Shown here: piece after piece, positions 508 through 17,367 of the stretch | How positions within the stretch are numbered: the first letter of the stretch is position 1 | How the letters are laid out: each line of letters begins with the position of its first letter | Source: Brucellaceae bacterium | Lineage (GTDB): Bacteria > Pseudomonadota > Alphaproteobacteria > Rhizobiales > Rhizobiaceae | DNA: 23,480 nucleotides | Direction of reading: 5' to 3' | Assembly (NCBI GenBank): GCA_031253705.1 | Contig: JAIRVW010000339.1 | Location: 1-23,480 of the forward strand | Notes under the pieces: generated by a model | The model's input: only the letters and a program-made list of their open reading frames with translations | Databases searched by the model: none | What the model was told of the DNA's origin: nothing | Program-made: the position numbers and the translations under genes

Positions 508-1482
508 ATGATTGCATTTATTGTCAGACGCTTATGGCAGGCAGCATTGGTGATGCTTGTCATGTCGCTATTGGTGTTTATGGGGGTCTTTGTCATCGGC
601 AATCCTGTCGATGTGCTGATCTCACCGGATGCGACACAGGAAATCCGTGACAGGGTGATCGCCCAATACGGGCTCGACCTGCCGGTATGGCAGCAATATC
701 TGCAATTCATGAGCAATCTGTTTCACGGCGATTTGGGGCGTTCGTTCGTCTATAATATGCCTGTTTCCGAGCTGATTGCATCACGGCTTCCCGCCACCGC
801 AGAACTGGCTCTGACAGCCGTGTTCATGGCCAGTCTCATCGGCATTCCGCTTGGTATTTATGCCGGTTACAAGCCGGACAGCTGGGCATCCAAAATCATT
901 ATGGCACTGTCTATTCTCGGTTTTTCCGTTCCGACCTTCTGGATCGGGCTGATGCTGATTATGGTTTTTGCCGTGCAGCTTGGCATCATGCCGGCAGGCG
1001 GACGCGGTGCCACGGTTTCCGTGCTGGGCGTTCCTGTCAGCTTCCTCACCCTTGACGGTCTGCATCATCTGGCACTGCCCGCCATCAACCTCTCACTGTT
1101 CAAATTATCGCTGATGATCCGTCTTGCCGCATCCGGCACGCGTGAAATCATGCTGACCGATACGATCAAATTTGCCCGTGCCGCCGGTATTAACGAGCGC
1201 ACAATCCTGCGCCGTCATGTGCTGCGCCTCATCTCCATTCCGCTTGTGACCGTATTCGGTCTGGAACTCGGCTCAACCGTTGCTTTCGCCGTTGTCACCG
1301 AGACGATCTATTCATGGCCGGGTCTTGGCAAGCTGATCATTGACAGTATCACCTCGCTCGACCGTCCGGTGATGGTCGCCTATCTGATGCTGGTTTCTCT
1401 GCTTTTCATCACGATTAATCTGATTGTGGATCTGTCCTATGCCGTGCTTGATCCGCGCATGCGTCAGGGAGGTGGCAAATAA
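508..1482 (+). CDS. Peptide-type ABC transporter permease (DppB/OppB family)
   Basis: This 324-residue inner-membrane protein is the first of two permease subunits of an oligopeptide/nickel-class ABC importer. It has an N-terminal helix (about residues 9-30), an extracytoplasmic region with the family's typical QYGLDLP..QQY pattern, and then a block of five hydrophobic segments from about residue 100. The EAA loop that docks on the ATPase is visible as ARAAGINERTILRRHVLR. The C-terminus DLSYAVLDPRMR is the usual DppB ending. The ATG is set by GGGGGAG eight bases upstream. The stop overlaps the next start (TAATG), so the genes are translationally coupled. Substrate is unknown; peptides, opines or glutathione-like molecules are all handled by this family. 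No solute-binding protein gene follows, so it probably lies upstream of the window. Confidence 0.93.
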   Translation: MIAFIVRRLWQAALVMLVMSLLVFMGVFVIGNPVDVLISPDATQEIRDRVIAQYGLDLPVWQQYLQFMSNLFHGDLGRSFVYNMPVSELIASRLPATAELALTAVFMASLIGIPLGIYAGYKPDSWASKIIMALSILGFSVPTFWIGLMLIMVFAVQLGIMPAGGRGATVSVLGVPVSFLTLDGLHHLALPAINLSLFKLSLMIRLAASGTREIMLTDTIKFARAAGINERTILRRHVLRLISIPLVTVFGLELGSTVAFAVVTETIYSWPGLGKLIIDSITSLDRPVMVAYLMLVSLLFITINLIVDLSYAVLDPRMRQGGGK

Positions 1483-2363
1483 TGTCATTGCTCAACAGCA
1501 GATCATTACAATTCTGGTCAGAATTCAAACGCCATCCGGTACCGGTTATTGCCGCTCTCGTGGTGCTGATCATTATCTTGCTGGCCGTCTTTGCACCGCT
1601 GATTGCACCGCAGGATCCTTATGATCTTTCCAGCCTTGTGCTGAGAGACGGACGCCGTGCACCCGGTTATATCGGTCAGGGCGGCTATACCCATATTCTG
1701 GGAACCGACGGACAAGGGCGCGATCTCTTCTCCGCCATTCTGTATGGCTTGCGCATTTCGCTGGAAATGGGCTTGCTCGCCGGTGCGATTGCCTTTGCCA
1801 TTGGCGCATTGGTCGGCTCAACGGCAGCCTATGTCGGCGGTCGTTTTGAAGCTTTCATCATGCGCGTCATCGACCTTCAGCTCTCCTTTCCGGCCATTCT
1901 GCTGGCCTTTGTGGTCGCAGCTTTGCTCGGACAAGGCAAAAGCCAGCTGATTATCGCTCTGGTCTTTTCGCAATATGCCTATTTTGTGCGCACTGCTCAT
2001 GGTGCGGCGGCAGCCGAGCGCAACAAAGACTATGTGGAAGCAGCCCTTTCCGTACCGATGAGCGGCTGGTTCATTGTCACCCGCCACATCCTGCCAAATG
2101 CTCTGCCGCCGCTGATCGTGGTTGCAACCATGCAGGTCGCCTCGGCAATTTCTCTGGAAGCAACGCTGTCTTTCTTAGGCGTTGGCCTGCCGCCGACAGA
2201 ACCGTCACTCGGCATGCTCATCTCCAACGGCTTTCAGTATTTGCTGTCCGGCCGTTACTGGATTTCGATTTATCCGGGCGTTGCACTGATCATTCTCATC
2301 ATGGCGATCAATCTTGTTGGTGATCAGATCCGCGACCAGCTTAATCCGAGGTTGAACAAATGA
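1482..2363 (+). CDS. Peptide-type ABC transporter permease (DppC/OppC family)
   Basis: This is the second permease of the same importer, 293 residues. It has the family's N-terminal membrane helix (about residues 20-42) followed by the GTDGQGRDLFSAILYGLR motif that marks the OppC/DppC N-terminal domain boundary, then five further hydrophobic segments. The cytoplasmic EAA loop reads EAALSVPMSGWFIVTRHILP, followed by the typical EATLSFLGVGLPP. The C-terminus GDQIRDQLNPRL is also typical. The ATG overlaps the previous stop by one base and its own stop overlaps the next ATG by four bases, which points to a single transcript and fixed subunit ratios. Confidence 0.93.
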   Translation: MSLLNSRSLQFWSEFKRHPVPVIAALVVLIIILLAVFAPLIAPQDPYDLSSLVLRDGRRAPGYIGQGGYTHILGTDGQGRDLFSAILYGLRISLEMGLLAGAIAFAIGALVGSTAAYVGGRFEAFIMRVIDLQLSFPAILLAFVVAALLGQGKSQLIIALVFSQYAYFVRTAHGAAAAERNKDYVEAALSVPMSGWFIVTRHILPNALPPLIVVATMQVASAISLEATLSFLGVGLPPTEPSLGMLISNGFQYLLSGRYWISIYPGVALIILIMAINLVGDQIRDQLNPRLNK

Positions 2364-4039
2364 CAGCTCATCTTCTTGAAGTCACCGATCTGCACACGCA
2401 TTTCGAAGCCCGCGCCGGTACGGTCAAATCTGTCGATGGTGTTTCCTTTTATCTCGACCGTGGCGAAATTCTGGGGCTGGTCGGGGAATCCGGTTCCGGC
2501 AAATCCATCACCGGTTTTTCCCTGATTGGTCTGATCGACAAACCGGGGCGCATCGTGCAAGGCTCTGTCAAACTGGAAGGCCATGAACTTGTCGGTTTGA
2601 GTGAAAGCGAGTTGCGCAAATTGCGCGGCCGTGAAATCTCGATGGTCTTTCAGGACCCGATGATGACGCTCAATCCGGTGCTCACCGTTCTCGACCAGAT
2701 GACACTGGCACTGCGCGCGCATGAGACCATCTCGGACAGCGATGCCCGTAAACGTTGCGTGGAAGCGCTTCGCCGTGTGCGCATTGTTGATCCGGAGCAT
2801 AAGGTTGATTTCTATCCGCATCAGTTTTCCGGTGGTATGCGCCAGCGCGTGGCGATTGCTATTGCCCTGCTGCACAATCCGAAAGTAGTGATTGCGGATG
2901 AACCGACCACAGCGCTTGACGTATCCGTACAGGCAGAAATTCTGACCGAAGTAAAAGCACTGGTCGCCGAGCTCGGCATTTCGATGATCTGGATCAGCCA
3001 TGATCTGGCAACCGTTGCCTCGATTTCAAAACGTATCGCCGTGATGAAGTCGGGCAAGATTGTCGAAACCGGCCCCGCTTCCGAAGTGCTGAAAGCACCG
3101 AGCCATCCTTATACACAAGGTCTGCTTGATGCCCTGCCGTCCCGCTCCAAGCCGGGGCAGATGCTGGGTAAACCATCTGCTGAAGAAGAAGTCTCTTTCA
3201 GTGATGCTGCACCGGCAACTGAATCCGTGCCGGACTTTGTAACCGTGCGAAATGCGGTCAAACGTTTTGAATGGAAAAGCGATGTCTGGAGCAGGCTCGG
3301 CCAGAAAATCGGTCTGCTCAAACCACGCAAACCGGTCATTGCTGTCAATCACGTCAATCTGACCATCGCCCGAGGGGAGGCGCTAGGGCTGGTCGGAGAA
3401 TCCGGATCAGGTAAATCAACGCTCGGCCGCATGGTCTGCGGGATTTATCAGCCGACTGAGGGGGAGATCCGTCTATCCGGCCAGCCTGTCATGTCTGACT
3501 ATGTGCACGGGCGCAAACTGACAACCAAAATCCAGATGATTTTTCAGGACCCGTTTGCGTCACTTGATCCGCGCCGTACCATCGGCCAGTCCATTGCAGA
3601 AGGGCCGATTGCCCATGGTCTGACCGGCAAAAGCGAAGCCCGTGCCTATGTGTCACACTGGCTGAAAGCGGTGAGCCTTGATCCGGCTTTTGCTGATCGT
3701 TATCCGCACCAGTTTTCCGGTGGTCAGCGTCAGCGTATCGCCATTGCCCGTGCATTGGCGATGAAACCGGAGGTGATTGTTTGCGATGAACCGGTGGCCT
3801 CGCTTGATGTATCCATTCAGGCGCAAATTCTCAATTTGCTGCTGCGGTTGCGCAAAGAACTGAATCTGACATTGCTGTTCATCAGCCATGATCTGTCGGT
3901 TGTGCGCCATCTCTGTGACCGCATTATCGTTATGCATCACGGCAAAATTGTTGAAGAAGGCATGGCTGAAACCATTTTTGAAGCGCCACAGCAGCCCTAT
4001 ACAAAAATGCTGCTGGATGCCATTCCGAAACTGGCTTAA
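2360..4039 (+). CDS. Dual-domain ABC ATPase (DppD-DppF type fusion)
   Basis: At 559 residues this polypeptide carries both nucleotide-binding domains of the importer. Domain 1 has Walker A GESGSGKS (42-49), signature FSGGMRQR (156-163) and Walker [10 protein letters not shown] (179-187). Domain 2 has Walker A at about 346-353, FSGGQRQR (452-459) and CDEPVASLD (475-483). A Ser/Glu/Ala/Pro-rich linker of about 30 residues (262-292) separates the halves. All catalytic motifs look intact in both. The C-terminal cysteine-rich tail found in many separate DppD/DppF proteins is absent from both halves, unlike the two ATPases encoded at 6101-8087. The ATG overlaps the permease stop (ATGA). A strong hairpin 18 bases after the stop probably ends the transcript. 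Confidence 0.94.
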   Translation: MTAHLLEVTDLHTHFEARAGTVKSVDGVSFYLDRGEILGLVGESGSGKSITGFSLIGLIDKPGRIVQGSVKLEGHELVGLSESELRKLRGREISMVFQDPMMTLNPVLTVLDQMTLALRAHETISDSDARKRCVEALRRVRIVDPEHKVDFYPHQFSGGMRQRVAIAIALLHNPKVVIADEPTTALDVSVQAEILTEVKALVAELGISMIWISHDLATVASISKRIAVMKSGKIVETGPASEVLKAPSHPYTQGLLDALPSRSKPGQMLGKPSAEEEVSFSDAAPATESVPDFVTVRNAVKRFEWKSDVWSRLGQKIGLLKPRKPVIAVNHVNLTIARGEALGLVGESGSGKSTLGRMVCGIYQPTEGEIRLSGQPVMSDYVHGRKLTTKIQMIFQDPFASLDPRRTIGQSIAEGPIAHGLTGKSEARAYVSHWLKAVSLDPAFADRYPHQFSGGQRQRIAIARALAMKPEVIVCDEPVASLDVSIQAQILNLLLRLRKELNLTLLFISHDLSVVRHLCDRIIVMHHGKIVEEGMAETIFEAPQQPYTKMLLDAIPKLA

Positions 4040-4496: not shown

Positions 4497-6044
4497 TTAG
4501 TCTAAACGTGTGCTGACTTTGCACAGGAAGCACAATTCAGTATGCGCCGGAGAGGTCAGGCTGGCGAAAATAATCGCACCGTCATAAGGCATCACAATAT
4601 CGCGGCCATCCGCACGCTTGCCGATCACTTCACCCTGTTTCACAGCCTCGCCGGTAACAAAGCGCTTCACCAGCTGATCCTCATCATGATCGGCCAGAAT
4701 AGCATCGCAGATTTCCAGAACACGCGGAGCTTGCGGTTTCTGCGCTGTATTTTTGATCATGCCAAGCGCGGCCAGGCCATTGATCACGCAATCATAACCA
4801 ACCTGCGGACCGTTCGGATCAAGATGCTGGCCGCATTCAACGGTCACACCATAACCACCGGCAAAACGCATATATTCCGTGGTGCCGATGCCGTGCAGCG
4901 AGGACAGGCCTTCGGTTACACCAGCTTCACGTTTCTGCTTCAAAGCCTTCTCGTGGGCAGGCAGCCAGCCATGTACCAGCAACGACAAGTTCAGTGCCTT
5001 TGCCAGCTTACTTTCTGCAGTTTCATGGGCAAAGGGTTCCAGTGCTCCGTGATTATCCTGCGGACCGAACAGAGCAAAAGCCTCGCCTTCCGAGCCAAAA
5101 GAATGCAGATCAATCAGCACATCATGGGCACGGAGCAGCGGGCAAATGACATTAGCAACACGGTCTTCATTATCCTGCGGGATCGCGCTTTCCGAAAGAT
5201 TGCGGTTGAAGTTGCGGTCACCGATACGGGTATTGTTGCGGAAGGCCAGACCATTGACCACGGGCACAAACGTCACCTGACCGCATTCCAGCTCGCGCTG
5301 GCCGCTGCGGAATTCACTGATCAGACGACTGATCGCATAAGGGCCTGACGGCTCATTGCCATGCACCGAACCGGTAACGATCAGGCGCGGGCCCGGTTTC
5401 AGACCATGGAATGTAACGGTCTCAATAGATTTGGGCGGATTGGTCACCAATGGCGCCAATGGTTTCACCACATCATTGATCGAAGAAATATCAATCACCA
5501 TCCCCGGACGGACACGACGTGCCAGTTCCATCAGATGTTCATGAGCGACCACCACACAGCCCGCAGTGCCGCTATAATCCGGCCGTGCCGTATGCATGAA
5601 AATGGCCGAACCACCGCTTGCATCCGGCAGAGCATCATTCCAGCCAACCGGAATAATCAGATCAAACAGGCGCTCGCCGCGACGTGACGGTTGCGTTTCG
5701 TCGGTTTCAAACACCAACTGATTATAGAAAGGGCTGTCCGTATCTTCCACCCAGCGGTAATTTTCCGGCTTTGGCAAAAACGGAAAGTCAAAGCCGCGTG
5801 GTTCATCGCCAAAAACCTCAGGATCATAGAAACCATAGCGCAGCGGATGACGTCCGCGCGGGGTTTTGCCGTCCCCTTCCCGCTTCAGTTGCGGATCAAC
5901 CAGACCATTGCGGCCAATCGCACATTTGACTGTCCAGTCATCAATGGTCAGCAAACCAATATGCGGATTTTGCGGGTCTTGTCCGGTGCGCACAACAATT
6001 GTCGGCTGCTCAAGGGTTCCGACCATAAACGGATTTTGGCTCAT
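4497..6044 (-). CDS. YkuD L,D-transpeptidase-fold / M14 aspartoacylase-type fusion hydrolase
   Basis: This 515-residue protein joins two enzyme modules. Residues about 12-187 resemble the cytosolic-looking YkuD (L,D-transpeptidase-fold) group, with KREGDGKTPRG and then GSAIFMHTARPDYSGTAGCV; the presumed catalytic residues are His151, Ser158 and Cys163. Residues about 205-435 form an M14 zinc hydrolase of the AstE/aspartoacylase type: the HGNE zinc motif gives His228 and Glu231, DLH gives His314, VECG gives Glu403, and DRNFNR is the substrate-binding stretch. The last 75 residues resemble the beta-rich C-terminal tail of that family. There is no signal peptide, so it should act in the cytoplasm on imported peptides. 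The ATG at 6044 is chosen, with CAGG nine bases before it; an in-frame ATG at 6128 would add 28 unconserved-looking residues and overlap the ATPase gene. It is the last gene of the LysR-flanked transporter operon. Reaction specificity is inference. Confidence 0.85.
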   Translation of the reverse strand: MSQNPFMVGTLEQPTIVVRTGQDPQNPHIGLLTIDDWTVKCAIGRNGLVDPQLKREGDGKTPRGRHPLRYGFYDPEVFGDEPRGFDFPFLPKPENYRWVEDTDSPFYNQLVFETDETQPSRRGERLFDLIIPVGWNDALPDASGGSAIFMHTARPDYSGTAGCVVVAHEHLMELARRVRPGMVIDISSINDVVKPLAPLVTNPPKSIETVTFHGLKPGPRLIVTGSVHGNEPSGPYAISRLISEFRSGQRELECGQVTFVPVVNGLAFRNNTRIGDRNFNRNLSESAIPQDNEDRVANVICPLLRAHDVLIDLHSFGSEGEAFALFGPQDNHGALEPFAHETAESKLAKALNLSLLVHGWLPAHEKALKQKREAGVTEGLSSLHGIGTTEYMRFAGGYGVTVECGQHLDPNGPQVGYDCVINGLAALGMIKNTAQKPQAPRVLEICDAILADHDEDQLVKRFVTGEAVKQGEVIGKRADGRDIVMPYDGAIIFASLTSPAHTELCFLCKVSTRLD

Positions 6045-6100: not shown

Positions 6101-7114
6101 TCAGAAAGCGCTCTCCAGCAAATGACAACGGGCACGATGCGACGGTTCTGTTCCTGCTCTGGTAAAGTCAGGAATATCGCCCTGACGGCAGGCATCAAAA
6201 GCGGAAGGGCAGCGCGGATTAAAGGCACAACCCAACGGCGGTTTGAGCGGTGACGGGGCTTCTCCCTGCATCCGGCGCGGCTTTCTTTCCGCCGCCAGCG
6301 GATCGGGAATAGAAGCGATCAGCGCCTGCGTATAGGGATGCAGCGGATTGGTGAAAATATCACTCCATATCCCCTCTTCCACAATTCGTCCCAGATACAT
6401 CACGGCAATGCGGTCGCTCATATGTTCAACCACGCCCAGATCATGAGAGATCATCAACAGCGCAATGCCCAGCTCATCTTTGAGCTCCAGCAGCAGATTG
6501 ATAATCTGCGCGCGGATCGACACATCAAGCGCGGAAACCGGCTCGTCACAGACCAGCAGTTTCGGCTCAACGATCAGGGCACGGGCAATGCAGATGCGCT
6601 GGCGCTGTCCGCCGGAAAATTCGTGCGGTTTACGGTCGGCCGCTTCCGGTTTCATGCCAACCTTGGTCAGCATATCAACCACACGCGCTTCGATCTCCGC
6701 TTTATCCTTCATGCCATGCAAACGCAAAGGCGCCGCCAGTGCATCGCGCACGGAACGGCGCGGATTGAGCGAAGCAAACGGATCCTGAAACACCATCTGC
6801 ACATTGCGCGCCTGAGCGAGCGGATCATTTTTCACTGCGCTCGGCACATCCTGCCCAGCCACATGGACTGAGCCGGATGTATAAGGCACCAGCCCCATAA
6901 TCGCGCTGGCCAGTGTTGATTTTCCGCAACCGCTTTCACCGACAAGGCCGAGGCACTCACCGGCGCGGATGGACAGGTCAACGCCGTTCACCGCTTTCAG
7001 GGTCTTTTTCCGGAAGCCCTCACGCACCGTATAATGAATTTTCAGGTCGCGCACGGCCAGCACTTCATCCGTGTGCGCTTCCTGTGCACAAGCAAAAGAA
7101 ACCTGTTCAGTCAT
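6101..7114 (-). CDS. Peptide ABC transporter ATPase (DppF/OppF family)
   Basis: This 337-residue cytoplasmic ATPase energises the importer encoded at 8096-9908. It shows Walker A GESGCGKS (59-66), signature FSGGQRQR (166-173), Walker B with CDEPVSALD (189-197) and the switch histidine in MISHDLGVVEH. The C-terminal oligopeptide-transporter extension is complete, with four cysteines in CAFNPRCPSAFDAC and a later ARCHL; in some Opp/Dpp ATPases such cysteines hold an iron-sulfur cluster. The start at 7114 overlaps the upstream ATPase stop by eight bases. The fusion hydrolase begins 56 bases after its stop. Confidence 0.93.
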   Translation of the reverse strand: MTEQVSFACAQEAHTDEVLAVRDLKIHYTVREGFRKKTLKAVNGVDLSIRAGECLGLVGESGCGKSTLASAIMGLVPYTSGSVHVAGQDVPSAVKNDPLAQARNVQMVFQDPFASLNPRRSVRDALAAPLRLHGMKDKAEIEARVVDMLTKVGMKPEAADRKPHEFSGGQRQRICIARALIVEPKLLVCDEPVSALDVSIRAQIINLLLELKDELGIALLMISHDLGVVEHMSDRIAVMYLGRIVEEGIWSDIFTNPLHPYTQALIASIPDPLAAERKPRRMQGEAPSPLKPPLGCAFNPRCPSAFDACRQGDIPDFTRAGTEPSHRARCHLLESAF

Positions 7115-8087
7115 GATGATAGCACCTGATTGTACTTGAACCTTCCAGCGCGGTTACCGGCGGCATAAGTGTTCTGCATTCATCCGTGGCACGCGGACAA
7201 CGCGAGGCGAAACCACAGGCATTGTCGCGCTCCAGCAAGCCCGGCACCACACCTTTGATCTCGGTCAGCTTTTTGCGTCCTTCCTGCAAACGCCGTCCGA
7301 GAAGCGGCAGAGACGCCACCAGCCCGCGCGTATAAGGATGGCGCGGATCGGTGAAAATCTGCGAAGCCGGACGCTGTTCTACAATATGACCCGCATACAT
7401 CACCGCCACACGGTCACACATGCGTGCAACCAGTCCCAGATCATGGCTGATCATCAGCACTGCCGTCCCGCGAGCTTTACACAGCTCCAAAATCAGCTCG
7501 ACAATCTCCGCCTGAATGGTCACATCCAGCGCCGTTGTCGGCTCATCGGCAATCAGCAGCGCCGGATCGCAGGCCAGCGCAATGGCAATCATCACACGCT
7601 GGCGCATACCGCCGGACAACTGGTGCGGATAATCTTTGATGCGCCGCTCAGGGCTCGGCACCTGCACCTGTTCCAGTGCTTCAATGGCTTTCAGCCGTGC
7701 CTGTCGCACCGACATGCCTTTATGCAGCACAAACATTTCGCCGATCTGATCACCGATGGTCATCAGCGGGTTGAGCGAGGTCATCGGCTCCTGAAAAATC
7801 ATCGCCACGCGGTCACCGCGCAGACGCCGCATATCTCTGTTAGAAAGCCGGTTAATATCCTGCCCTTCCAGCAGCACCTGCCCCTGCGTCACATGCAAAG
7901 GCGGCCGCAGCAATCCCGCAATGGTCAGGGCGCTCAGGCTTTTGCCGCAGCCGGATTCCCCCACCAGACCGAAGACTTCACCGGCCTGAATAGAGAAGTT
8001 CATCTGACTGACGGCGGGATAATTCTGCTCTTTATGCCGCAAAGCGATGGAAAGATTATCCAGTTGCAAAATCGGTTGATCAGACAT
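7107..8087 (-). CDS. Peptide ABC transporter ATPase (DppD/OppD family)
   Basis: This is the second ATPase subunit, 326 residues, forming a heterodimer with the product of 6101-7114. Motifs in order are Walker A GESGCGKS (43-50), [11 protein letters not shown]-loop, signature LSGGMRQR (157-164), Walker [13 protein letters not shown] (177-188) and [11 protein letters not shown]. The C-terminal tail carries the four-cysteine pattern [15 protein letters not shown] plus IRCYHH. GGGAGG precedes the ATG. The gene starts nine bases after the DppC-type permease stop and overlaps the next ATPase, so the transporter genes form one tight unit. Confidence 0.93.
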
Positions 8088-8095
8088 CAGCGTTT

Positions 8096-8902
8096 TTACC
8101 TCCCGTGCGGGTCGAGCAGATCGCGCAGGCCGTCACCCAGCATGTTAAAACCAAGCACAGTGATAAACAGTGCCAGCCCCGGAAAAATCGCAACCCAAGG
8201 CGCAACCATCAGCTGCTCACGGGCACGCGCCAGCATGCCGCCCCAGCTTGGTGCCGGCGGCACAACGCCAAGGCCGAGGAAGGACAACGAGGCTTCCGCC
8301 ATAATTGCCGAGCCGATACCCATGGTTGCCACAACGATCAGCGGCCCGCCGATATTCGGCAGAATTTCGCGCAGCATAATATAGAACCGGCCAAAACCGA
8401 GTGTACGCGCGGCCTGCACATAGTTCTGGGATTTCTGGGTCAGCACCTGCGCACGCGAGATGCGGCAGCTATAGGCCCAGTCGGTCAGGCCAAGCGCAAT
8501 CAAAAGGCTCAGCAAACCTGGTCCGAGAACAGCCATTAATGCCAATGCAAAAACGATGGTCGGAATTGCCAGCATCAGATTGGTCAGGCCTTGCACAAAC
8601 TCATCCCACCAGCCGCCGATATAACCGGCAGAAAGCCCGAGCAACACGCCGATACAGGTATTCATCGTCTGAATGGCAAGGCCGATCAGCAGCGAAATCC
8701 GTGCACCGTAAACAATACGCGAGAAGATATCGCGTCCCTGTTCATCGGTACCGAACCAGAATTGCGCACTCGGCGGCTCTTCCGCATACATCAGATTGGA
8801 ATGGCCGACAGGATCATAGGGTGCAATCCATGGCGCAAATAATGCCACCAGAGCAACAGCCGCAAAGATAATGAGACCGATGATAAGATTGGAGCGTAAC
8901 AT
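8096..8902 (-). CDS. Peptide ABC transporter permease (DppC/OppC family)
   Basis: This 268-residue inner-membrane permease has an N-terminal helix (about 6-26), the FGTDEQGRDIFSRIVYGAR motif typical of the DppC family, five more hydrophobic segments, an EAA loop reading QAARTLGFGRFYIMLREILP, then EASLSFLGLGVVPP. The C-terminus GDGLRDLLDPHGR is typical. The ATG at 8902 is the only usable start: an in-frame TGA lies seven codons upstream. It overlaps by one base the stop of an 18-codon mini-ORF (TAATG) that begins just after the DppB-type permease gene. It is slightly shorter than many DppC proteins because its N-terminal cytoplasmic arm is short. Confidence 0.92.
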   Translation of the reverse strand: MLRSNLIIGLIIFAAVALVALFAPWIAPYDPVGHSNLMYAEEPPSAQFWFGTDEQGRDIFSRIVYGARISLLIGLAIQTMNTCIGVLLGLSAGYIGGWWDEFVQGLTNLMLAIPTIVFALALMAVLGPGLLSLLIALGLTDWAYSCRISRAQVLTQKSQNYVQAARTLGFGRFYIMLREILPNIGGPLIVVATMGIGSAIMAEASLSFLGLGVVPPAPSWGGMLARAREQLMVAPWVAIFPGLALFITVLGFNMLGDGLRDLLDPHGR

Positions 8903-8963: not shown

Positions 8964-9908
8964 TTAACCGTAGCGGATGCGCGGATCGATCATCAGATAG
9001 GCGATATCGACAAGCGTATTGATGACGAGGAAAAACAGCACAATCACGAGAATACAGCCCTGAACCGTCGGAATATCGCGCATCGAGACGGACTGGATCA
9101 GCAGCGATCCGATACCCGGCCATGCGAACAGGTTTTCAATCACCACGGAACCGCCGAGCATGGAGCCGAATTGCAGACCGATGGTTGTCAGCACCAGCAC
9201 AAACGCATTACGCGCCATATGTTTAGTGGCAATGCGGAATTCCGAATTGCCTTTAGAGCGGGCAGTGCGCACAAAATCCGCATTCATCGTCTCCAGCACG
9301 GCCGCACGGGTGGTACGCGCCAGCAGCGCCATGGGGCCGATGCCCAGCGTGATTGCAGGCAAAATGAGATTTTTGATACTGCCATTGCCATAGCCGAAGG
9401 TGGGCAGCAGCCCCAGTTGCAGAGACACGAAATACATCGCAATCAAGCCGAACCAGAAGCTTGGCAGCGACAGGCCGGACACGGCCGTAATCATCGCTGT
9501 GGTATCCAGCCATGTGCCTTGCCGCACCGCCGCGAGAAAGCCAAGCGGCAGGCCGATCAGCACCGCAAAGATGATCGCGGCAACTGCCAGTCTGAAAGAC
9601 GCGACAATGCGGGTCGACAACATATCCGTGACCGGACGCTGCGTGGCAAAAGAGGTGCCCAGATCAGCAGTTGCAAGACCGGCAATATAGCGGCCGAAAC
9701 GCTGCGGCAGCGGATCATTCAGCCCGAGCTCTTTTTCGATCCGCTCAATCACCGCCGGATCAATGTCACGTTTATCGCCGGAAATCGCCGATACGAATGT
9801 GCCGGGCATCACACTGAACAGAAAGAAGATCAATGTGATTGCCGCAAAGACTGTAACGAGGGACTGCAGCAGACGCCTGCCAACCACCATCAGCATAGGA
9901 ATATCCAT
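8964..9908 (-). CDS. Peptide ABC transporter permease (DppB/OppB family)
   Basis: This is the first permease of the minus-strand importer, about 314 residues from the chosen ATG at 9908. A TTG one codon earlier and ATGs at 9896 and 9887 are alternatives, and no ribosome-binding site is strong enough to decide. It has an N-terminal helix (VVGRRLLQSLVTVFAAITLI), the ELGLNDPLPQRFGRYI region seen in DppB proteins, a block of five membrane segments, an EAA loop FVRTARSKGNSEFRIATKHM, and the typical ending DIAYLMIDPRIRYG. It follows the binding-protein gene by about 140 bases containing two hairpins. Confidence 0.92.
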   Translation of the reverse strand: MDIPMLMVVGRRLLQSLVTVFAAITLIFFLFSVMPGTFVSAISGDKRDIDPAVIERIEKELGLNDPLPQRFGRYIAGLATADLGTSFATQRPVTDMLSTRIVASFRLAVAAIIFAVLIGLPLGFLAAVRQGTWLDTTAMITAVSGLSLPSFWFGLIAMYFVSLQLGLLPTFGYGNGSIKNLILPAITLGIGPMALLARTTRAAVLETMNADFVRTARSKGNSEFRIATKHMARNAFVLVLTTIGLQFGSMLGGSVVIENLFAWPGIGSLLIQSVSMRDIPTVQGCILVIVLFFLVINTLVDIAYLMIDPRIRYG

Positions 9909-9920
9909 CAATTATGCAGG

Positions 9921-10047: not shown

Positions 10048-11652
10048 TTACTGACGGCCGGGGGCATTATCATCGAGCCAGAGTGAATCCACCTCGATAA
10101 TCGCGGCTTCTGTCACATTGGCATCAACGCCGTGAATCCATGGCTGGGTCGCAACAACGGCTTTGTTGTAATTGTTGAACCAGACTGGAGCCTTGTCGAA
10201 AATATAACCGTCGGCTTTTTTCAGAAGCTCAGTCCGTTTTGCCGGATCAGTTTCTGCCGCTGCTTCATCCAGCATCGCATCATAGGCAGGGTCTTTGAAC
10301 GCACTGCGGTTACAGGCCGGACGGCTCACACGGCTGTCAAAGCAGCGCAAAGTTGTCAGCGGATCAGGTCCTGTACCGGCCGAGCGAAACCATGCAGCGG
10401 CAAGCCCCTGATTCATCTCATCGACCAATGTGTTGGAATCCACAACTTTGGCCTTAGCAGTAATGCCGACTTCTTTCAGGAACGGCATCATCGCTTCCAG
10501 TGTGCCGAGACTGTTATTGCCTTCTGTCACAGTTGCGGTGAATTCAAAACCATCCGGATAGCCTGCTGCTGCCAGCAATTCTTTGGCTTTAGCCGGATCA
10601 TAGGCATAAGGCGCACGATCCTTGTCAAAAGCCGGAGAAGTCGCAGGCAGCCAGCCGGTTGCCTTATAGGCTTTCTCTTTCAGGAGCTTGCGGATGATAA
10701 TATCACGGTCAACCGCATAGTTGATTGCCTGACGCACACGCGCATCATCAAATGGTTTCTTCTCGGTATTGAAGCCCATATGACGGGTGAAAACCTCGGA
10801 AACCTCGATCAGACCTTTGGAGAGCTCCGGATCGGCCTTATACATCGTATAGGCATTTTCTGACAACACTGTCGCATCCAGTTCACCGGCGCGGAAGGCC
10901 ATATCCAGCGCACTGTTATCGCCGGAAATGGTGAAATCCACCGCATCGGCATAAGGCTTGTTGGCCTTGTAATATTTATCAAATTTCTTACCGGAGATTT
11001 TTGAACCTTCAACATGGTTCTCAAACACAAAAGGCCCGAGACCCACCGGCTTGGAGAGGAAATTACCGCCTTCAACTTCTTCTTTCGGCAGGATCGCAGT
11101 GATCGCTTCAAAGAACTGGGTGCCCGGATCGGTCAGCTCTTTAAAGGTCAGCGAAAATGTATTGTCATCAATCTTTTTGATGCCGCTGATGTCTTTGGCT
11201 TCACCTTTGCCATATTCCTGCGCACCCACAAGTGTGCCGACCTGCACCGCACCCGGATAGCCCTTAGCCGGATCCATGATACGGGTATAAGACCAGATCA
11301 CATCATCAACCGTCAGCTTGCGATCGTTATGGAAATAAATATTGTCGAACAGCTTATAGGTGTAAGTCTTGCCGTCTTCACTTGTTGTTACGGATTCTGC
11401 CAGATCAAGCGCAGGCGCGTTTTTGGCTGAATCCCATGAATAAAGCGAGCGGTGGAAGGCTTTTGAAACAGCCATATCCTGCGAATTATAGGTCACATGC
11501 GGATCAAGGCTTTTCAGCGCTGCGCCATAAGGGGCAGCCAGATGCAATGTGCCGCCGGATTTGGCTTCATCCGCCCAGACAGAGGCGGACGGCAGAGCGA
11601 CGGACAATGCCGCAGCGAAAAATGTGGTTTTCAGTACAGACCGGTAGTTCAT
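10048..11652 (-). CDS. Periplasmic peptide-binding protein (SBP family 5)
   Basis: This 534-residue protein is the substrate-capturing subunit of the minus-strand importer. A Sec signal peptide spans residues 1-27 (basic MNYRSVLK, hydrophobic core, cut after SVWA). The mature part shows the usual family-5 landmarks: GGTLHLA, LDPHVTYNSQD, LAESVTTSEDGKTYTYKL, the VDDVIWSYTRIMDP stretch, GLGPFVF, VRQAINYAVDRD and YDPAKAKELLAAAGYPDG. No lipobox is present, so it should be free in the periplasm. AAAGGGG (11658-11664) is a good ribosome-binding site for the ATG at 11652. The beta-lactamase-fold gene ends 38 bases upstream. The ligand cannot be read from sequence; a peptide is most likely for the family. 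Confidence 0.93.
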   Translation of the reverse strand: MNYRSVLKTTFFAAALSVALPSASVWADEAKSGGTLHLAAPYGAALKSLDPHVTYNSQDMAVSKAFHRSLYSWDSAKNAPALDLAESVTTSEDGKTYTYKLFDNIYFHNDRKLTVDDVIWSYTRIMDPAKGYPGAVQVGTLVGAQEYGKGEAKDISGIKKIDDNTFSLTFKELTDPGTQFFEAITAILPKEEVEGGNFLSKPVGLGPFVFENHVEGSKISGKKFDKYYKANKPYADAVDFTISGDNSALDMAFRAGELDATVLSENAYTMYKADPELSKGLIEVSEVFTRHMGFNTEKKPFDDARVRQAINYAVDRDIIIRKLLKEKAYKATGWLPATSPAFDKDRAPYAYDPAKAKELLAAAGYPDGFEFTATVTEGNNSLGTLEAMMPFLKEVGITAKAKVVDSNTLVDEMNQGLAAAWFRSAGTGPDPLTTLRCFDSRVSRPACNRSAFKDPAYDAMLDEAAAETDPAKRTELLKKADGYIFDKAPVWFNNYNKAVVATQPWIHGVDANVTEAAIIEVDSLWLDDNAPGRQ

Positions 11653-11690: not shown

Positions 11691-12602
11691 TTACGCTGCC
11701 TTTTCACCAAAGGCGTAATCATAGAAATATTTGCCGAAATCCGGCAAAAAGCTTTTATCCTGTGCAGGCCACGTGCCGTCACACATCACACAGAGCACAA
11801 AACTGCGCCCGTCCGGTGTTTCTCCGTAAACCACATCATGCCGTGTCCATGAGGTGTGGCCTGCTTTTGACCATGTGCGGACTGTGCGCGGCAGACCTTC
11901 AACCAGAAAACCGGTGACCTGATCACCATCCGCTTCCAGATCCTGCTGACCACGCTGAAACTCGCGATCCATCAGACGCATCATCCAGTCCGAACGAACC
12001 CGTGCGCCACGCGCAATATCATGCATCAGAGCTGCAGCGGATAATGCGGTCAGGAGATTGCCGTTTTCACCGGTGCGGATTTGCTTGGCGCGGCCATAGG
12101 GACTGTCATGATAGGTGCCGTGCAGGACATTGATACCGGCAAATTCAGGGCGGTTTTGCGCGTCATACCAGTGCTGAACACGGCGGCGCGCCGCACACCA
12201 TGCCTGCAAAGCCTCGCCTTGCAGAGGAGCGCCATCATCCGCACCGGTCAAACGACCAACAAGATAAACCGTCGCTTCATTGGAGGAAATCACCATCATC
12301 TGGGCGGCAGCACGTTCATCCTCATCATTGTCTTCAAGCTGCCCCTGCTCGCGAAAGGCTGCCAAAGCATCAAGGAAAAACATCTTCACAACACTGGCAG
12401 GATAAAGCGGCTTATCCGCCTGATGGGAAAACCAGTCCAGCCCGATCATCGCACCGGGGTCAGTGTGCCGCAAAGGCGCATCATAAAGACAGGCCGCAAC
12501 GCAGACATCCTCCTTACGCAGGCCGCCATTGGTCATGGACAATGCCTGTTCCAAAGCACGCGCCGCCGGATGCTGATGCGGATTATGAGCCTGAACACTC
12601 AT
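11691..12602 (-). CDS. Leaderless class A beta-lactamase-fold serine hydrolase
   Basis: This 303-residue protein carries the three motifs of the serine beta-lactamase/DD-peptidase fold: SVVK (Ser70-Lys73), SSN (106-108) at the SDN position, and KAG (246-248) in the KTG position. Residue numbers happen to match class A lactamase numbering. I cannot find the omega-loop Glu-x-x-Leu-Asn motif of true class A lactamases; the equivalent region reads GINVLHGTYHDSPYG. There is no signal peptide, so it should be cytoplasmic and is more likely an amidase, esterase or peptidase than a resistance enzyme. AAGGGGAAT precedes the ATG. It is the first gene of the minus-strand operon and faces the divergent LysR gene. 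Confidence 0.8.
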   Translation of the reverse strand: MSVQAHNPHQHPAARALEQALSMTNGGLRKEDVCVAACLYDAPLRHTDPGAMIGLDWFSHQADKPLYPASVVKMFFLDALAAFREQGQLEDNDEDERAAAQMMVISSNEATVYLVGRLTGADDGAPLQGEALQAWCAARRRVQHWYDAQNRPEFAGINVLHGTYHDSPYGRAKQIRTGENGNLLTALSAAALMHDIARGARVRSDWMMRLMDREFQRGQQDLEADGDQVTGFLVEGLPRTVRTWSKAGHTSWTRHDVVYGETPDGRSFVLCVMCDGTWPAQDKSFLPDFGKYFYDYAFGEKAA

Positions 12603-12731
12603 TTTATTCCCCTTTTTGGAGATGAGTTAGCCACGAAACTCTGTGCTTTGATATAGAAATATCATTGGAACTTTATTCATAAAAGATATTAAGTGGTAAC
12701 ATGGCACCTTAAATTTGGGAGGATGAGAGCC
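12603..12731. promoter_or_regulatory. Divergent promoter region with LysR-type dyad
   Basis: These 129 AT-rich bases separate the LysR gene from the operon it probably controls. TGATATAGAAATATCA (12649-12664) is a 16-base dyad with TGATAT and ATATCA arms and a four-base centre; it also contains a T-N11-A pattern, the core of LysR-type binding sites. A second AT-rich stretch (12670-12691) has no clear symmetry. Exact promoters cannot be fixed by eye. Confidence 0.5.
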
Positions 12732-13667
12732 ATGTTGCGCAAAAATCATATCAATCTGCGACAGGTAGAAATTTTCAGGGCAACAATGAAATTCGGTACT
12801 GTGACGGCAGCAGCCGCAGCACTTGGTTCCTCGCAGCCGACAATCACCCGTGAATTGTCCAGACTGGAAGAACATATCGGTTTCCGGCTGTTTGAGCGCC
12901 GCCTGCAACGGCTGATACCAACGGCCAGAGCGCTCAAATTATTTGAGGAAGTGCAGGCCTCTTTCATCGGTCTCGACCGGATTAACGGTTTTATCGACCG
13001 GCTGCGTGATGCATCAGAGGAAGTGCTGACCGTGGCCTCCCTGCCCGCATTTGCGCAAACCATTCTGCCCGACGCGATTGCCCGTCTGAGCAAAACCCAT
13101 CCCGATCTGACCCTGCAGATCAGCACCGTCGATCCGCGCAACCAGTCGAGCATTTCCGGCTTTAACTTTGATATCGGGCTGATTGAGGATTTTTACACAC
13201 AAAGAGACGCGGAAGTACGCGTACTCCGGGTATTTAAACTCGTCGCGGTCATGCCGCCGGATCACCCGCTGGCACAGCGCGATTATCTGGAGCCGCAGGA
13301 TTTTGAAGGACAGAATTTTATCAGTCTCGGCTCACAAGACCCCTATCGGCTGAGCGTAGAGCGTATTTTTGACATGGCAGGCACGGAAAGACGGCTGTTT
13401 CTCTCCTCACAATCCGCGAATAGCGTGTGTGAACTGGTGTTGCGGGGGCTGGGCGTTTCTATCGTCAATCCGCTGACAGCACTGAGTTATGAAAAACAAG
13501 GGCTGGTGCTGAAGCCCTTTATACCCGCGCAGGACTTTGTGCTGTCAGCCTTACGCCCGCTGAACCGGCCGGTCGTTGCCAGCTCCGAAGCCCTGCTCGC
13601 GCATTTATCCGAAATATGTGCGGAAACGCACGGGATTTTAGAACAAAAATTCTCCGGCTATCTGTAA
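12732..13667 (+). CDS. LysR-family transcriptional regulator
   Basis: This 311-residue regulator has an N-terminal winged helix-turn-helix at about residues 7-66 (LRQVEIFRATMKFGTVTAAA, then GSSQPTITRELSRLEEHIGFRLFERR), a linker helix, and a two-lobed periplasmic-binding-fold effector domain from about residue 90 (VASLPAFAQTILPDAIARL). The ATG at 12732 is chosen because GGGAGG (12717-12722) is nine bases before it; upstream in-frame GTG and ATG codons at 12693 and 12723 lie before or on that site. It is divergent from the hydrolase-transporter operon, the usual layout for a LysR activator whose effector is the transported compound or a breakdown product. Confidence 0.93.
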   Translation: MLRKNHINLRQVEIFRATMKFGTVTAAAAALGSSQPTITRELSRLEEHIGFRLFERRLQRLIPTARALKLFEEVQASFIGLDRINGFIDRLRDASEEVLTVASLPAFAQTILPDAIARLSKTHPDLTLQISTVDPRNQSSISGFNFDIGLIEDFYTQRDAEVRVLRVFKLVAVMPPDHPLAQRDYLEPQDFEGQNFISLGSQDPYRLSVERIFDMAGTERRLFLSSQSANSVCELVLRGLGVSIVNPLTALSYEKQGLVLKPFIPAQDFVLSALRPLNRPVVASSEALLAHLSEICAETHGILEQKFSGYL

Positions 13668-13894: not shown

Positions 13895-14001
13895 ACGGGT
13901 ATGCTTTAGGGTTCAATTCACGTGCACGCAATTGCAGCTATAACAGTCTGTTTTATTGCCTGCTCATCATTGTAGATACAACAATAAGGGGTGCAAAATT
14001 G

Positions 14002-15129
14002 ATGGTTTGGCGTCCCTGCCTGTCAGTCCTGTCCCTGTTGCTCCTGACAGCCTGTGCCACCAAGGATCCGGCCAGCCTTACCTATGGTAAGCGCGACATC
14101 GGCATCGATGATGCTTTTGTCCTGCCGTCCAACCGTTCCGTTGTCGGCATTACACAGGAGCGCGCCAGCAATGCCGTCACCCAGACGATTGCACTCAGCA
14201 CGAATTCCGGTCATTCCGGTGCCAATTATTTCCGCGTCACATTTTTCGGCCCCGTCAATTCAGAAGGTGCCAGCGAAAACACATTATCATATCTGCCGCT
14301 CACCGAAGGGCGCATTTCACGGGAACTGCGCACAGAACTCGCAGGCGTTCCGATGGTACGCTCGCCTTATTATGTGCAGAACAATTACGGTCCGTTCAGC
14401 TATGCAACCGGCAAAACCGCAGGTGGCGACAGCTGTATTTATGCATGGCAGCAAATCCGCTCTCCGGCATATGCGCAACAGTTTTTCCAGAACCGTGGCC
14501 GCATAGACCTGCGCTTGCGTCTGTGTGAAACCGGTGCCAGTCAGGAAAAGCTGTTGGCCTCTATGTATGAATTTACCATCAATGCAACTATCGCAGCCAG
14601 CGGCTGGAACCCCTACGGAGAACCGGCAGGTCCTTCGCCGGATATCGGCCGTATGGGCAGCCCGCTGATGGCTCCTGCCGTACAAAGCAATCTGAGCGGT
14701 GCTTTTCCGGCCAGTGATCTGAATACCGACCGTCTCAATACCAGCCTGTCAAAGGCAGAAGCGCCAGCCCGTATTTCCGCGCCGGTACAAAAGCGCAGTC
14801 CTGTGGCACAGCCGCGGCAAGAGAGCGGTTATTATCCGCCAGCCGGCTCTGCTTACGGATCAGCCGCTTATCCGCAGGCCCCAGTTCCAAATCCTGTTAT
14901 TGTACCTGCACCTCAGCAGGCCGCTTCAATGCCCGTGCGGCAGGTCGCTGTACCGGCAGCACCTGTCTATACCGCACCACAGGCACAACAGGTTCAGGTA
15001 CCACTACCAACAACGATGACACTGCCGCAACCCGCAGCCGCAGCCTCTGTTGTCGTGCCTTCGCCTTGCAGATTACCAGCCAGTTCACAATCCGGCGCTG
15101 CCGGAAATAACACGATGATATGTCCCTGA
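14002..15129 (+). CDS. bcsN: Cellulose biosynthesis lipoprotein BcsN
   Basis: This 375-residue protein is the first gene of the cellulose operon. A lipoprotein signal peptide ends in L-T-A-C with Cys18 as the lipidated residue. Residues about 25-215 carry a conserved-looking domain (IGIDDAFVLPSNRSVVGITQ, RVTFFGP, CIYAWQQI) of the type known as BcsN in rhizobial and agrobacterial cellulose operons. Residues about 216-375 are a Pro/Ala/Gln-rich, probably disordered tail with two late cysteines and a C-terminal ICP. AAGGGG (13986-13991) precedes the ATG at 14002; a TTG one codon earlier is an alternative. The molecular role of BcsN is not established; anchoring in an envelope membrane is expected. 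bcsA starts 45 bases downstream. Confidence 0.8.
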   Translation: MVWRPCLSVLSLLLLTACATKDPASLTYGKRDIGIDDAFVLPSNRSVVGITQERASNAVTQTIALSTNSGHSGANYFRVTFFGPVNSEGASENTLSYLPLTEGRISRELRTELAGVPMVRSPYYVQNNYGPFSYATGKTAGGDSCIYAWQQIRSPAYAQQFFQNRGRIDLRLRLCETGASQEKLLASMYEFTINATIAASGWNPYGEPAGPSPDIGRMGSPLMAPAVQSNLSGAFPASDLNTDRLNTSLSKAEAPARISAPVQKRSPVAQPRQESGYYPPAGSAYGSAAYPQAPVPNPVIVPAPQQAASMPVRQVAVPAAPVYTAPQAQQVQVPLPTTMTLPQPAAAASVVVPSPCRLPASSQSGAAGNNTMICP

Positions 15130-15174
15130 TGATCATGAAAACAAACAAGACACATAGTAAAACAGGAGGTTCCG

Positions 15175-17367
15175 GTGCATAAAATCGGTATTTTCTTCTG
15201 GTGGCTGCTCTCGGCAGCCTGTGTGCTGTTACTCACTTTCACGCCGATTAATCTGGCGACACAGCTGACACTGGGCATCAGTGTGCTGATTGTCATGGCC
15301 GTGTTTAAGCATTTCCGCGTCGGCGGTAACTGGCGGCTGGTCGTACTGGCAATCGGTACGTCAATTGTGTTGCGCTATGTCTATTGGCGCACAACGCAGA
15401 CCATCCCGCCTGTCAGTCAGCTGCAAAACTTCATTCCGGGGATTATTCTGTATCTTGCGGAAATGTACAGCGTCATGATGCTGGCGCTTTCGATGTTTGT
15501 TGTGTCGTTTCCGCGCGTGTCACCTGCCCCTGTTATCCTGCGGGCAGAGGAAATGCCCGCGGTCGATGTGTTCATTCCGACCTATAATGAAGATGCCGGT
15601 CTGCTCGCCAATACGCTGGGCGCAGCGGTGAATATGGATTACCCCGCCGATAAACTGACCATTTGGCTGCTGGATGACGGCGGTACGGATCAGAAATGCA
15701 ATTCCGCCAATTTGCTGGAAAGCCGCAGAGCAACCGAACGCCGTGCAGAATTGCAGGCGCTATGTGCGGATTTCGGCGTCAATTACCTGACCCGTGCCCG
15801 TAATGAGCACGCAAAAGCCGGTAACCTCAACAATGGCCTTGCCCATTCCAAAGGTCAGCTGGTTGCTGTTTTTGATGCTGATCACGCGCCTGCACGTAAT
15901 TTTCTGACAGAAACCGTCGGCTATTTCCGCGATAATGCCAAATTATTTCTGGTGCAGACCCCGCATTTCTTCATCAATCCTGACCCCGTTGAACGGAATT
16001 TACGCACATTCAACCAGATGCCGAGCGAGAACGAAATGTTCTACGGCATGATCCAGCGCGGGCTGGATAAATGGAATGCTGCATTCTTCTGCGGTTCTGC
16101 CGCCTTGCTCAGTCGTGAAGCGCTGGCGACAACCAACGGTTTCAGCGGTGTCAGCATTACGGAAGACTGCGAAACGGCGGTTAACCTGCACGCACAAGGC
16201 TGGGACAGTGTCTATATTGACCGTCCGCTGATTGCCGGTCTGCAACCGGCGACATTTGCCAGTTTTATCGGCCAGCGCAGCCGCTGGGCGCAGGGCATGA
16301 TGCAGATCCTGCGGTTCCGCTTTCCGCCTCTGATGGCAGGGTTAAGCCTGCCGCAGCGCCTGTGCTATATGTCCTCGACATTGTTCTGGCTGTTTCCTTT
16401 TGCGCGCATGACATTCCTCGTCGCGCCGCTGTTTTATCTGTTCTTTGATCTGCAGATTTTCGTGGCTTCCGGCGGGGAGTTTCTGGCCTATACGCTGATC
16501 TATCTCTGCGTAAACCTGATGCTGCAGAATTATCTCTACGGTTCTTATCGCTGGCCGTGGATTTCCGAGCTCTATGAATATGTGCAGTCGGTTCATTTGC
16601 TGCCTGCGATTATTTCGGTCATTCTCAATCCGCGCAAACCGACTTTCAACGTAACAGCAAAAGACGAATCCATTCTTGTCGCCCGTCTTTCGGAAATTGC
16701 CCGTCCGTTTTTTATCATTTTTATCATTCTGGTTCTGGCGCTTCTGATCGCTGCCTATCGCATCTATACAGAGCCTTATAAGGCCGATGTTTTGCTGGTT
16801 GTCGGCGGCTGGACATTGCTCAATCTGATTATGGCAGGTTGTGCGCTGGGTGTTGTCTCCGAGCGCGGCGAACGCTCCTCATCCGTGCGCGTTAAAGTCA
16901 CCCGCCGCTGTGAAGTCCTGATTGACGGCCAGTGGCATACCGCCACCATTGATGATGTCTCCGCTAATGGTATGCATCTGATGATCTATGCCGGAGATAT
17001 TGCAGCACTCAATATCGGCAGTGAAATCTCCGCCCGCTTCATCACACTTGCAGACGAACAAAGCGGCGATCTGCCGGTTGAAATCCGTAATGTTGCGCGT
17101 GAAGGCGACCTGATCTCTGTCGGCTGTCTGTATAAGCCCAGCAAAGCCGCGCATCACCGGCTGGTTGCCGATCTGATTTTTGCCAATGCCGGACGCTGGG
17201 GAGAAATGCAGCGGGAACGCCGCACCAATCCGGGCGTGCTGCGGGCAACATTATGGTTCTTCAGTCTGTCGCTCTATCAGACCGGTCGCGGACTGGCCTA
17301 TTTCCTCGGTCTGAAACAATATTCGGCTAAGCTGAAAGAAAAATCCGGCAAAGGGGAGAAAACATGA
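15175..17367 (+). CDS. bcsA: Cellulose synthase catalytic subunit with PilZ domain
   Basis: BcsA polymerises UDP-glucose into beta-1,4-glucan and pushes the chain through the inner membrane. The 730-residue length matches agrobacterial CelA. Four N-terminal helices lie before residue 112. The GT2 domain shows DDG (167-169), DAD (234-236), FFCGS (304-308), TED (329-331) and the QRSRW acceptor motif (367-371), all intact, so it should be active. Further helices lie at about 398-560. A C-terminal PilZ domain (about 563-680) has the DVSANG box (594-599), but the paired arginines are spaced R-x4-R (567, 572) instead of the usual R-x3-R. Activation by cyclic di-GMP is expected for the family. The start is a GTG with AGGAGG (15164-15169) five bases before it. 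It overlaps bcsB by four bases. Confidence 0.96.
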   Translation: MHKIGIFFWWLLSAACVLLLTFTPINLATQLTLGISVLIVMAVFKHFRVGGNWRLVVLAIGTSIVLRYVYWRTTQTIPPVSQLQNFIPGIILYLAEMYSVMMLALSMFVVSFPRVSPAPVILRAEEMPAVDVFIPTYNEDAGLLANTLGAAVNMDYPADKLTIWLLDDGGTDQKCNSANLLESRRATERRAELQALCADFGVNYLTRARNEHAKAGNLNNGLAHSKGQLVAVFDADHAPARNFLTETVGYFRDNAKLFLVQTPHFFINPDPVERNLRTFNQMPSENEMFYGMIQRGLDKWNAAFFCGSAALLSREALATTNGFSGVSITEDCETAVNLHAQGWDSVYIDRPLIAGLQPATFASFIGQRSRWAQGMMQILRFRFPPLMAGLSLPQRLCYMSSTLFWLFPFARMTFLVAPLFYLFFDLQIFVASGGEFLAYTLIYLCVNLMLQNYLYGSYRWPWISELYEYVQSVHLLPAIISVILNPRKPTFNVTAKDESILVARLSEIARPFFIIFIILVLALLIAAYRIYTEPYKADVLLVVGGWTLLNLIMAGCALGVVSERGERSSSVRVKVTRRCEVLIDGQWHTATIDDVSANGMHLMIYAGDIAALNIGSEISARFITLADEQSGDLPVEIRNVAREGDLISVGCLYKPSKAAHHRLVADLIFANAGRWGEMQRERRTNPGVLRATLWFFSLSLYQTGRGLAYFLGLKQYSAKLKEKSGKGEKT

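Follow-up and report, generated by a model that had tools for sequence, protein, structure and literature searches.

The window analysed here is a 23,480-nucleotide stretch of a Brucellaceae bacterium metagenome-assembled genome (MAG; GenBank assembly GCA_031253705.1, contig JAIRVW010000339.1, positions 1 to 23,480 of the forward strand), and our subject is a gene in it that joins a YkuD L,D-transpeptidase-fold domain to an M14 aspartoacylase-type zinc hydrolase. This fusion gene stands last in a minus-strand operon that opens with a serine hydrolase and continues through a solute-binding protein (SBP), DppB, DppC, DppD and DppF, with gaps of at most 136 bp; a LysR-type regulator gene is divergent. 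The features are as follows.

4497..6044, minus strand: YkuD-M14 fusion gene (ATG start, 515 residues; YkuD domain at residues 37-186, M14 domain at residues 217-318 and on)
6101..7114, minus strand: DppF-like ATPase of a peptide importer (ABC_tran and oligo_HPY)
7107..8087, minus strand: DppD-like ATPase (ABC_tran and oligo_HPY)
8096..8902, minus strand: DppC-like permease (profile match)
8964..9911, minus strand: DppB-like permease (profile match)
10048..11652, minus strand: solute-binding protein SBP_bac_5 (profile match)
11691..12602, minus strand: beta-lactamase-fold serine hydrolase with no evident leader (profile match to PF13354)
12673..12689, minus strand: predicted LysR operator ATATCNNNNNTGMATRA (distance upstream: 70 bp to the first gene of the operon, 42 bp to the likely ATG of LysR)
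12732..13667, plus strand: LysR-type regulator, same family as E. coli LysR (292 bits on NF008239, cut-off 288)

Both domains of the fusion exceed their Pfam cut-offs, PF03734 (YkuD) at 44.1 bits versus 23.4 and PF24827 (AstE_AspA_cat) at 51.4 bits versus 25, and a structure model of the whole protein has a mean predicted local distance difference test score (pLDDT) of 85.8 and a predicted template modelling score (pTM) of 0.63. The original prediction, made from the DNA letters and their translations, had named an intact YkuD motif (H151, S158 and C163) and an intact M14 zinc site (H228, E231, H314 and E403), and each of these residues lies where it had been placed. Conservation was counted over the best 120 of 1288 homologues (E <= 0.001; 8000 candidates scored). 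H151, G162 and C163 occur in all 116 rows covering the column (4 gaps), and H228, E231, R273, R277, N278, N280, R281, H314 and E403 occur in 120/120; position 158 is more variable (82 S, 21 T, 8 R, 3 P and 1 A among the top counts, 4 gaps). By database Pfam labels, 115 of the 120 have both domains, which supports the earlier description of a single chain and rules out a frameshift or an assembly join of two genes. The halves form two adjacent open reading frames (ORFs) in Paenochrobactrum gallinarii, with one in-frame stop between them and the motif kept in each.

The absence of an evident leader, also part of the prediction, was upheld: the maximum 15-residue Kyte-Doolittle mean in the first 60 residues is 1.07, compared with 1.77 for the operon SBP, and an alternative TTG start (543 residues) brings no leader. 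Leader calls in the fusion and the operon proteins are based on hydropathy only. The mean exceeds 1.6 in 11 of 114 fused homologues (a count that leaves out P0198-P0201), the stretch lying mostly within the YkuD domain itself. Two supposed oddities around Cys163 proved to be ordinary. The Ala of TAGC is found at position 161 in 104/116 homologues, and stand-alone YkuD proteins have TAGC too, in 4 of 17 frames read (L064, L078, L082 and L086); V165, occupying the place two after the Cys where Arg had been looked for, is unremarkable because A, V, G, T or C is usual there among homologues. Passages of one report give Arg at this place for many L,D-transpeptidases and Ala (Ala145) for the hydrolytic DpaA (PMC10653827). 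The fusion therefore lacks two traits of canonical exported L,D-transpeptidases, the export signal (by hydropathy) and Arg two past the Cys (V165).

The YkuD part modelled alone (mean pLDDT 89.8, pTM 0.86) resembles solved YkuD enzymes, in agreement with the predicted fold, and fold comparison places it nearest to two L,D-carboxypeptidases, Pgp2 and Csd6. By motif counting only, an aromatic residue (Phe149) precedes the catalytic His by two positions, as the D-Ala-pocket Trp158 precedes His160 in Csd6. The domain would be an L,D-carboxypeptidase that removes D-Ala4 from meso-diaminopimelate (mDAP; DAP, diaminopimelate). Alternatively, it might cleave as an L,D-endopeptidase or as an amidase (3-3 cross-linked peptides, plentiful in this order, are one conceivable substrate) or might have remained a transpeptidase or exchanger; only one of the two cuts proposed below would then be right. 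We consider this improbable, as the nearest YkuD folds are carboxypeptidases and Phe149 supplies an aromatic residue at the Csd6 pocket position; with no evident leader, the fusion would also have no sacculus to cross-link.

The M14 half is assigned to the AstE/AspA family (PF24827) by its profile score, an HxxE...H metal site and a catalytic Glu. In both fold and sequence it comes nearest to DoeB, 3cdx and 2qj8, and its fold is less close to Csd4. The Csd4 pattern for the C-terminal carboxylate and the oxyanion, R-x6-N-R plus Glu (R273, N280, R281 and E403), is present in 120/120 homologues, a pattern expected in other M14 enzymes too. Proximity to DoeB, whose substrate is by model name an N2-acyl diamino acid, would suit an N-acyl-amino-acid deacylase of DoeB- or aspartoacylase-like type, acting on N-acyl-DAP, N-acyl-lysine or N-succinyl-DAP in an operon that scavenges acylated diamino acids and not murein peptides, and a DAP-type LysR fits this too. 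Such a role is unlikely, since it leaves unexplained the intact YkuD site, the Pgp2/Csd6 folds and the D-peptidase/beta-lactamase-fold serine hydrolase, and the M14 half scores far under the equivalog or subfamily cut-offs for DoeB (30.8 versus 402.7), aspartoacylase (26.4 versus 180) and AstE (16.9 versus 170).

The eight-gene order is kept in 12 of 18 loci compared (L009-L016, L019, L020, L022 and L023). The remainder have broken frames (L025), end at a contig edge (L017), deviate (L021, L024 and L026) or retain only the DppF end and the fusion (L018). The operon also lies on 3/5 plasmid records having a match; the importer and LysR were not seen beside the more distant fusions L058, L075 and L122. 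Three rearranged versions bear on the function of the two domains. Mesorhizobium soli (L026) has LysR facing lysA, SBP, the importer and a lone YkuD gene, and this lysA exceeds the diaminopimelate decarboxylase cut-off (421.4 versus 297.9 bits); contig C259 of the MAG has LysR facing SBP, DppBCDF and a lone YkuD gene; and genome G114 has SBP and DppBCDF followed by an M14 gene without YkuD. Such operons end with YkuD alone, M14 alone or both, which is what a single pathway using both domains would predict. Decarboxylase genes beside M14-only genes were not used as evidence for DAP (that of L066 scores 248 on lysA, cut-off 298; that of L065 is nearest to nspC).

No PDB entry is related in sequence at E <= 1 to the serine hydrolase at 11691-12602, whose Ser70-x-x-Lys73, Ser106-x-Asn108 and Lys246-x-Gly248 are invariant across 31 aligned sequences. 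These SxxK, SxN and KxG motifs are compatible with an operon that imports beta-lactam or other peptide antibiotics and breaks them down in the cytosol, as is a gene annotated 6-aminopenicillanic acid acyltransferase near the operon on one plasmid (Rhizobium sp. ACO-34A, L121), where it accompanies another peptide ABC set downstream of the operon at 15841-20405. We judge this highly improbable: the enzyme is without an evident leader, whereas beta-lactams act outside the cytosol, the regulator and its predicted operator belong to the DAP/lysA type, and a sister operon carries lysA.

The regulator is placed by the ORF list at GTG 12693, and its likely start is ATG 12732, preceded by GGAGG. It passes NF008239 (PRK11013) narrowly (E. 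coli LysR scores 590.7 bits) and is 43% identical to E. coli LysR across 287 residues. The sister-operon LysRs score 300.9 and 297.3 bits, and for the LysR beside lysA-dapF in a congener NF008239 is the best model, below cut-off at 263.3. E. coli LysR activates lysA with DAP, according to passages of two reports (PMC6254735, PMC5002191). Judged by regulator family and operator, mDAP would be the co-inducer to expect for this LysR, and the operon would be activated by it.

The operator motif ATATC-N5-TGMAT was derived by reading aligned promoters, the E. coli lysR-lysA region included. It is exact in 18/20 promoter regions, or 15/17 without L070, L071 and L074, which we judged to be duplicates of L011, L014 and L019, and the L012 and L013 promoters have it with one mismatch; its presence in these source promoters is partly circular because the motif was read from them. 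Outside promoters, 385 kb contained one match, with further single matches in L080 and L124. The 2.6-Mb MAG has the ATATCNNNNNTGMATRA motif three times, at the fusion operon, the C259 operon and a PF00144 gene on contig C191, and the reversed-pattern control gave 0. The motif lies between lysR and lysA-dapF in 3/3 held-out congeners and is present in 3/3 held-out plasmid operons; congener G886 has the same placement, with lysA and dapF over their cut-offs. A search of eight genomes gave 15 matches (reversed control 2), 5 of them linked to fusion-type operons or lysA-dapF. ATATC-n5-GATAT, the palindrome published for E. coli, is unenriched in the window (9 matches with at most 2 mismatches versus 6.66 expected). 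In front of the C191 PF00144 serine hydrolase (L092:6972-8420), the motif lies 143 bp upstream, and a homologue in G886 (75% identity; L106:6365-7798) ends an SBP-DppBCDF operon also having the motif.

S66 LdcA was detected in 0/11 genomes with the fusion, a split pair or an M14 relative (E. coli control positive; 9/11 pass the completeness filter and the MAG is 62% complete). Mpl over cut-off was likewise found in 0/11, and all 11 have weaker Mpl-model matches, which we take to be other Mur ligases. Passages on Agrobacterium and Caulobacter describe LdcA and Mpl as missing and suggest that recovered peptides are degraded (PMC9790009, PMC11980594, PMC13046382).

Taken with the folds, operon and regulator, the fusion is probably the cytosolic end of an operon for murein-peptide uptake and dismantling that is induced by DAP. 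SBP-DppBCDF would import cell-wall peptides, and the beta-lactamase-fold enzyme may remove D-Ala5, which is the weakest step. Removal of D-Ala4 by the YkuD domain would free the mDAP carboxylate, which the invariant Asn280-Arg281 of the M14 domain should bind, and the M14 domain would then cut gamma-D-Glu-mDAP to yield mDAP and L-Ala-D-Glu. The released mDAP would act on LysR in a feed-forward loop, as suggested by the regulator family and, by comparison, the shared operator. One chain would thus hold two cuts that must run in a fixed order, like Csd6 then Csd4 or Pgp2 then Pgp1. The original prediction had raised two consecutive cuts on one peptide; for a murein peptide, this remains the best reading of the Pgp2/Csd6 folds, the operon, the regulator, the operator and the lysA-bearing sister operon, which point to DAP peptides, and it stands as a prediction. 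If true, an enzyme family known chiefly from N-acyl amino acids would act on murein, and the first cut of a two-domain enzyme would make the group needed by the second. The studied passages on Agrobacterium and Caulobacter name no L,D-carboxypeptidase for peptide degradation (PMC9790009, PMC13046382), and for this route the operon is a candidate that comes with its own regulator, operator and named substrates. A wider possibility, offered tentatively, is a DAP-inducible regulon in the Alphaproteobacteria that have neither LdcA nor Mpl. Paralogous LysRs, all using a single type of operator, would run it, and it would bring in murein peptides for stepwise cytosolic breakdown by serine D-peptidases with the beta-lactamase fold, a YkuD L,D-carboxypeptidase and a gamma-D-Glu-mDAP amidase of the AstE/AspA family. 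The latter two would be fused into a one-chain counterpart of Csd6-Csd4 in which the first cut produces what the second acts on, and released DAP would be nutrient, inducer and LysA substrate.

Several observations weigh against this interpretation. Agrobacterium is described as being without cytosolic L,D-carboxypeptidase activity on muropeptides, despite two YkuD proteins without a signal peptide (passages of PMC9790009 and PMC11527210), and Caulobacter data speak against a cytosolic L,D-carboxypeptidase too (in part of PMC13046382); because of these data, a leaderless YkuD protein alone proves nothing. Of the matches in the eight-genome motif search, 10/15 are without an evident link, as are 8/11 in a seven-genome search (reversed control 1), and no motif match was found in 3/7 genomes of the one search and 2/8 of the other. 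Neither G741 nor G644 showed the motif-lysA link, and an unlinked motif copy in G741 (L093, G741:C11:265558) is identical to that genome's operon site, with neighbours that are not linkable to DAP.

The closest functional parallels are Csd6 and Csd4 of Helicobacter pylori and Pgp2 and Pgp1 of Campylobacter jejuni, in each of which, according to passages of the cited reports, a YkuD L,D-carboxypeptidase is followed by an M14 D,L-carboxypeptidase (PMC4599014, PMC4220969, PMC10653827); a title in a reference list has it that Pgp2 'provides the substrate' for Pgp1. The fold pair is the same and, if the prediction is right, so are the cuts, D-Ala4 then mDAP. These enzymes are separate proteins outside the cytosol that trim wall murein and set cell shape, whereas the fusion is one chain, with no evident leader, in a peptide-import operon, and its M14 domain is of the AstE/AspA type (PF24827) with HxxE where the Csd4 type has QxxE. 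ElsL of Acinetobacter baumannii, to which the original prediction had pointed, is a leaderless YkuD protein proposed as a cytosolic L,D-carboxypeptidase in recycling without LdcA; it is a single domain serving peptide re-use, and the passages concerned describe no M14 half, importer or DAP-type LysR (PMC8649774). The comparison holds as a functional analogy, and the fusion, with 515 residues and two domains, falls outside the class because ElsL orthologues are restricted to 105-200 residues in the same source. DoeB (EutE; N2-acetyl-diaminobutyrate deacetylase) and CphZ (cyanophycin dipeptide hydrolase) are without a YkuD domain. The E. coli LysR-lysA pair, as far as the cited passages go, is alike in regulator family, divergent layout and an ATATC half-site motif in the promoter (PMC5002191, PMC6254735). 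E. coli LysR controls lysA, whereas here LysR precedes an importer and hydrolases. In the dpp-ykf region of Bacillus subtilis, a peptide importer likewise adjoins murein-peptide hydrolases, with other enzyme families and regulation. YejBEF-YepA of Rhizobiales is also an ABC system importing cell-wall fragments in bacteria without AmpG and LdcA, encoded by other genes; the passages seen describe no DAP-LysR link and assign no peptide enzymes (PMC9790009).

Within the order, the fusion profile matches 203/249 genomes (at most 6 candidates per genome scored). The best match per genome is full-length in 2 (the MAG and G135) and M14-only in 3 (G114, G187 and G238), and all other matches listed fall on the YkuD domain. 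Short YkuD proteins with no evident leader were read in 14 genomes (L076-L089; by eye, starts uncertain). At E <= 1e-30, the M14 half matches 6/387 genomes of the class, five at 33-36% identity with frames of ~300 residues, and 7/297 genomes of the family, six with frames of 519-556 residues and one, G702, with 317 (split form). Because so few genomes match the full length or the M14 half, the fusion is a scattered accessory gene. Some public protein names already read 'L,D-peptidoglycan transpeptidase YkuD / predicted deacylase', and no functional paper on a YkuD-aspartoacylase-type fusion was found in the open-licence PMC literature. Ubiquitin entries among the matches were low-scoring repeats and were disregarded.

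Individual records add further variation. A record titled Bacillus subtilis SK6B4 (L009) has the operon, with a fusion 93% identical to that of the window, which points to a mistitled record or a contaminated assembly. A 42% identical fusion on the conjugative plasmid pT173a of Ensifer canadensis (L122) lies next to a GntR regulator, with no importer or motif. In Mesorhizobium soli (L018, L073 and L074), genes for a PF00144 serine hydrolase, a pyridoxal-phosphate aminotransferase-fold enzyme and an M55 D-aminopeptidase adjoin the fusion, and in strain NHI-8 of this species the operon has shrunk to the DppF end and the fusion. An M14-only relative (38% identity) on a Sulfuriferula nivalis plasmid (L124) lies amid ATP-grasp, argH, cysteine-synthase, PhzF and MFS genes, beside an acyl-homoserine-lactone synthase gene; the M14 family may therefore also serve a biosynthetic pathway. 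In the window itself, a second oligopeptide-type ABC cassette (two permeases and one double ATPase), distinct from the Dpp set, lies next to the operon at 508-4039 on the plus strand, and an apparent cellulose synthesis cluster (BcsA/BcsB-like, glycosidase-like and TPR proteins, named by eye) lies past LysR at 13999-22994.
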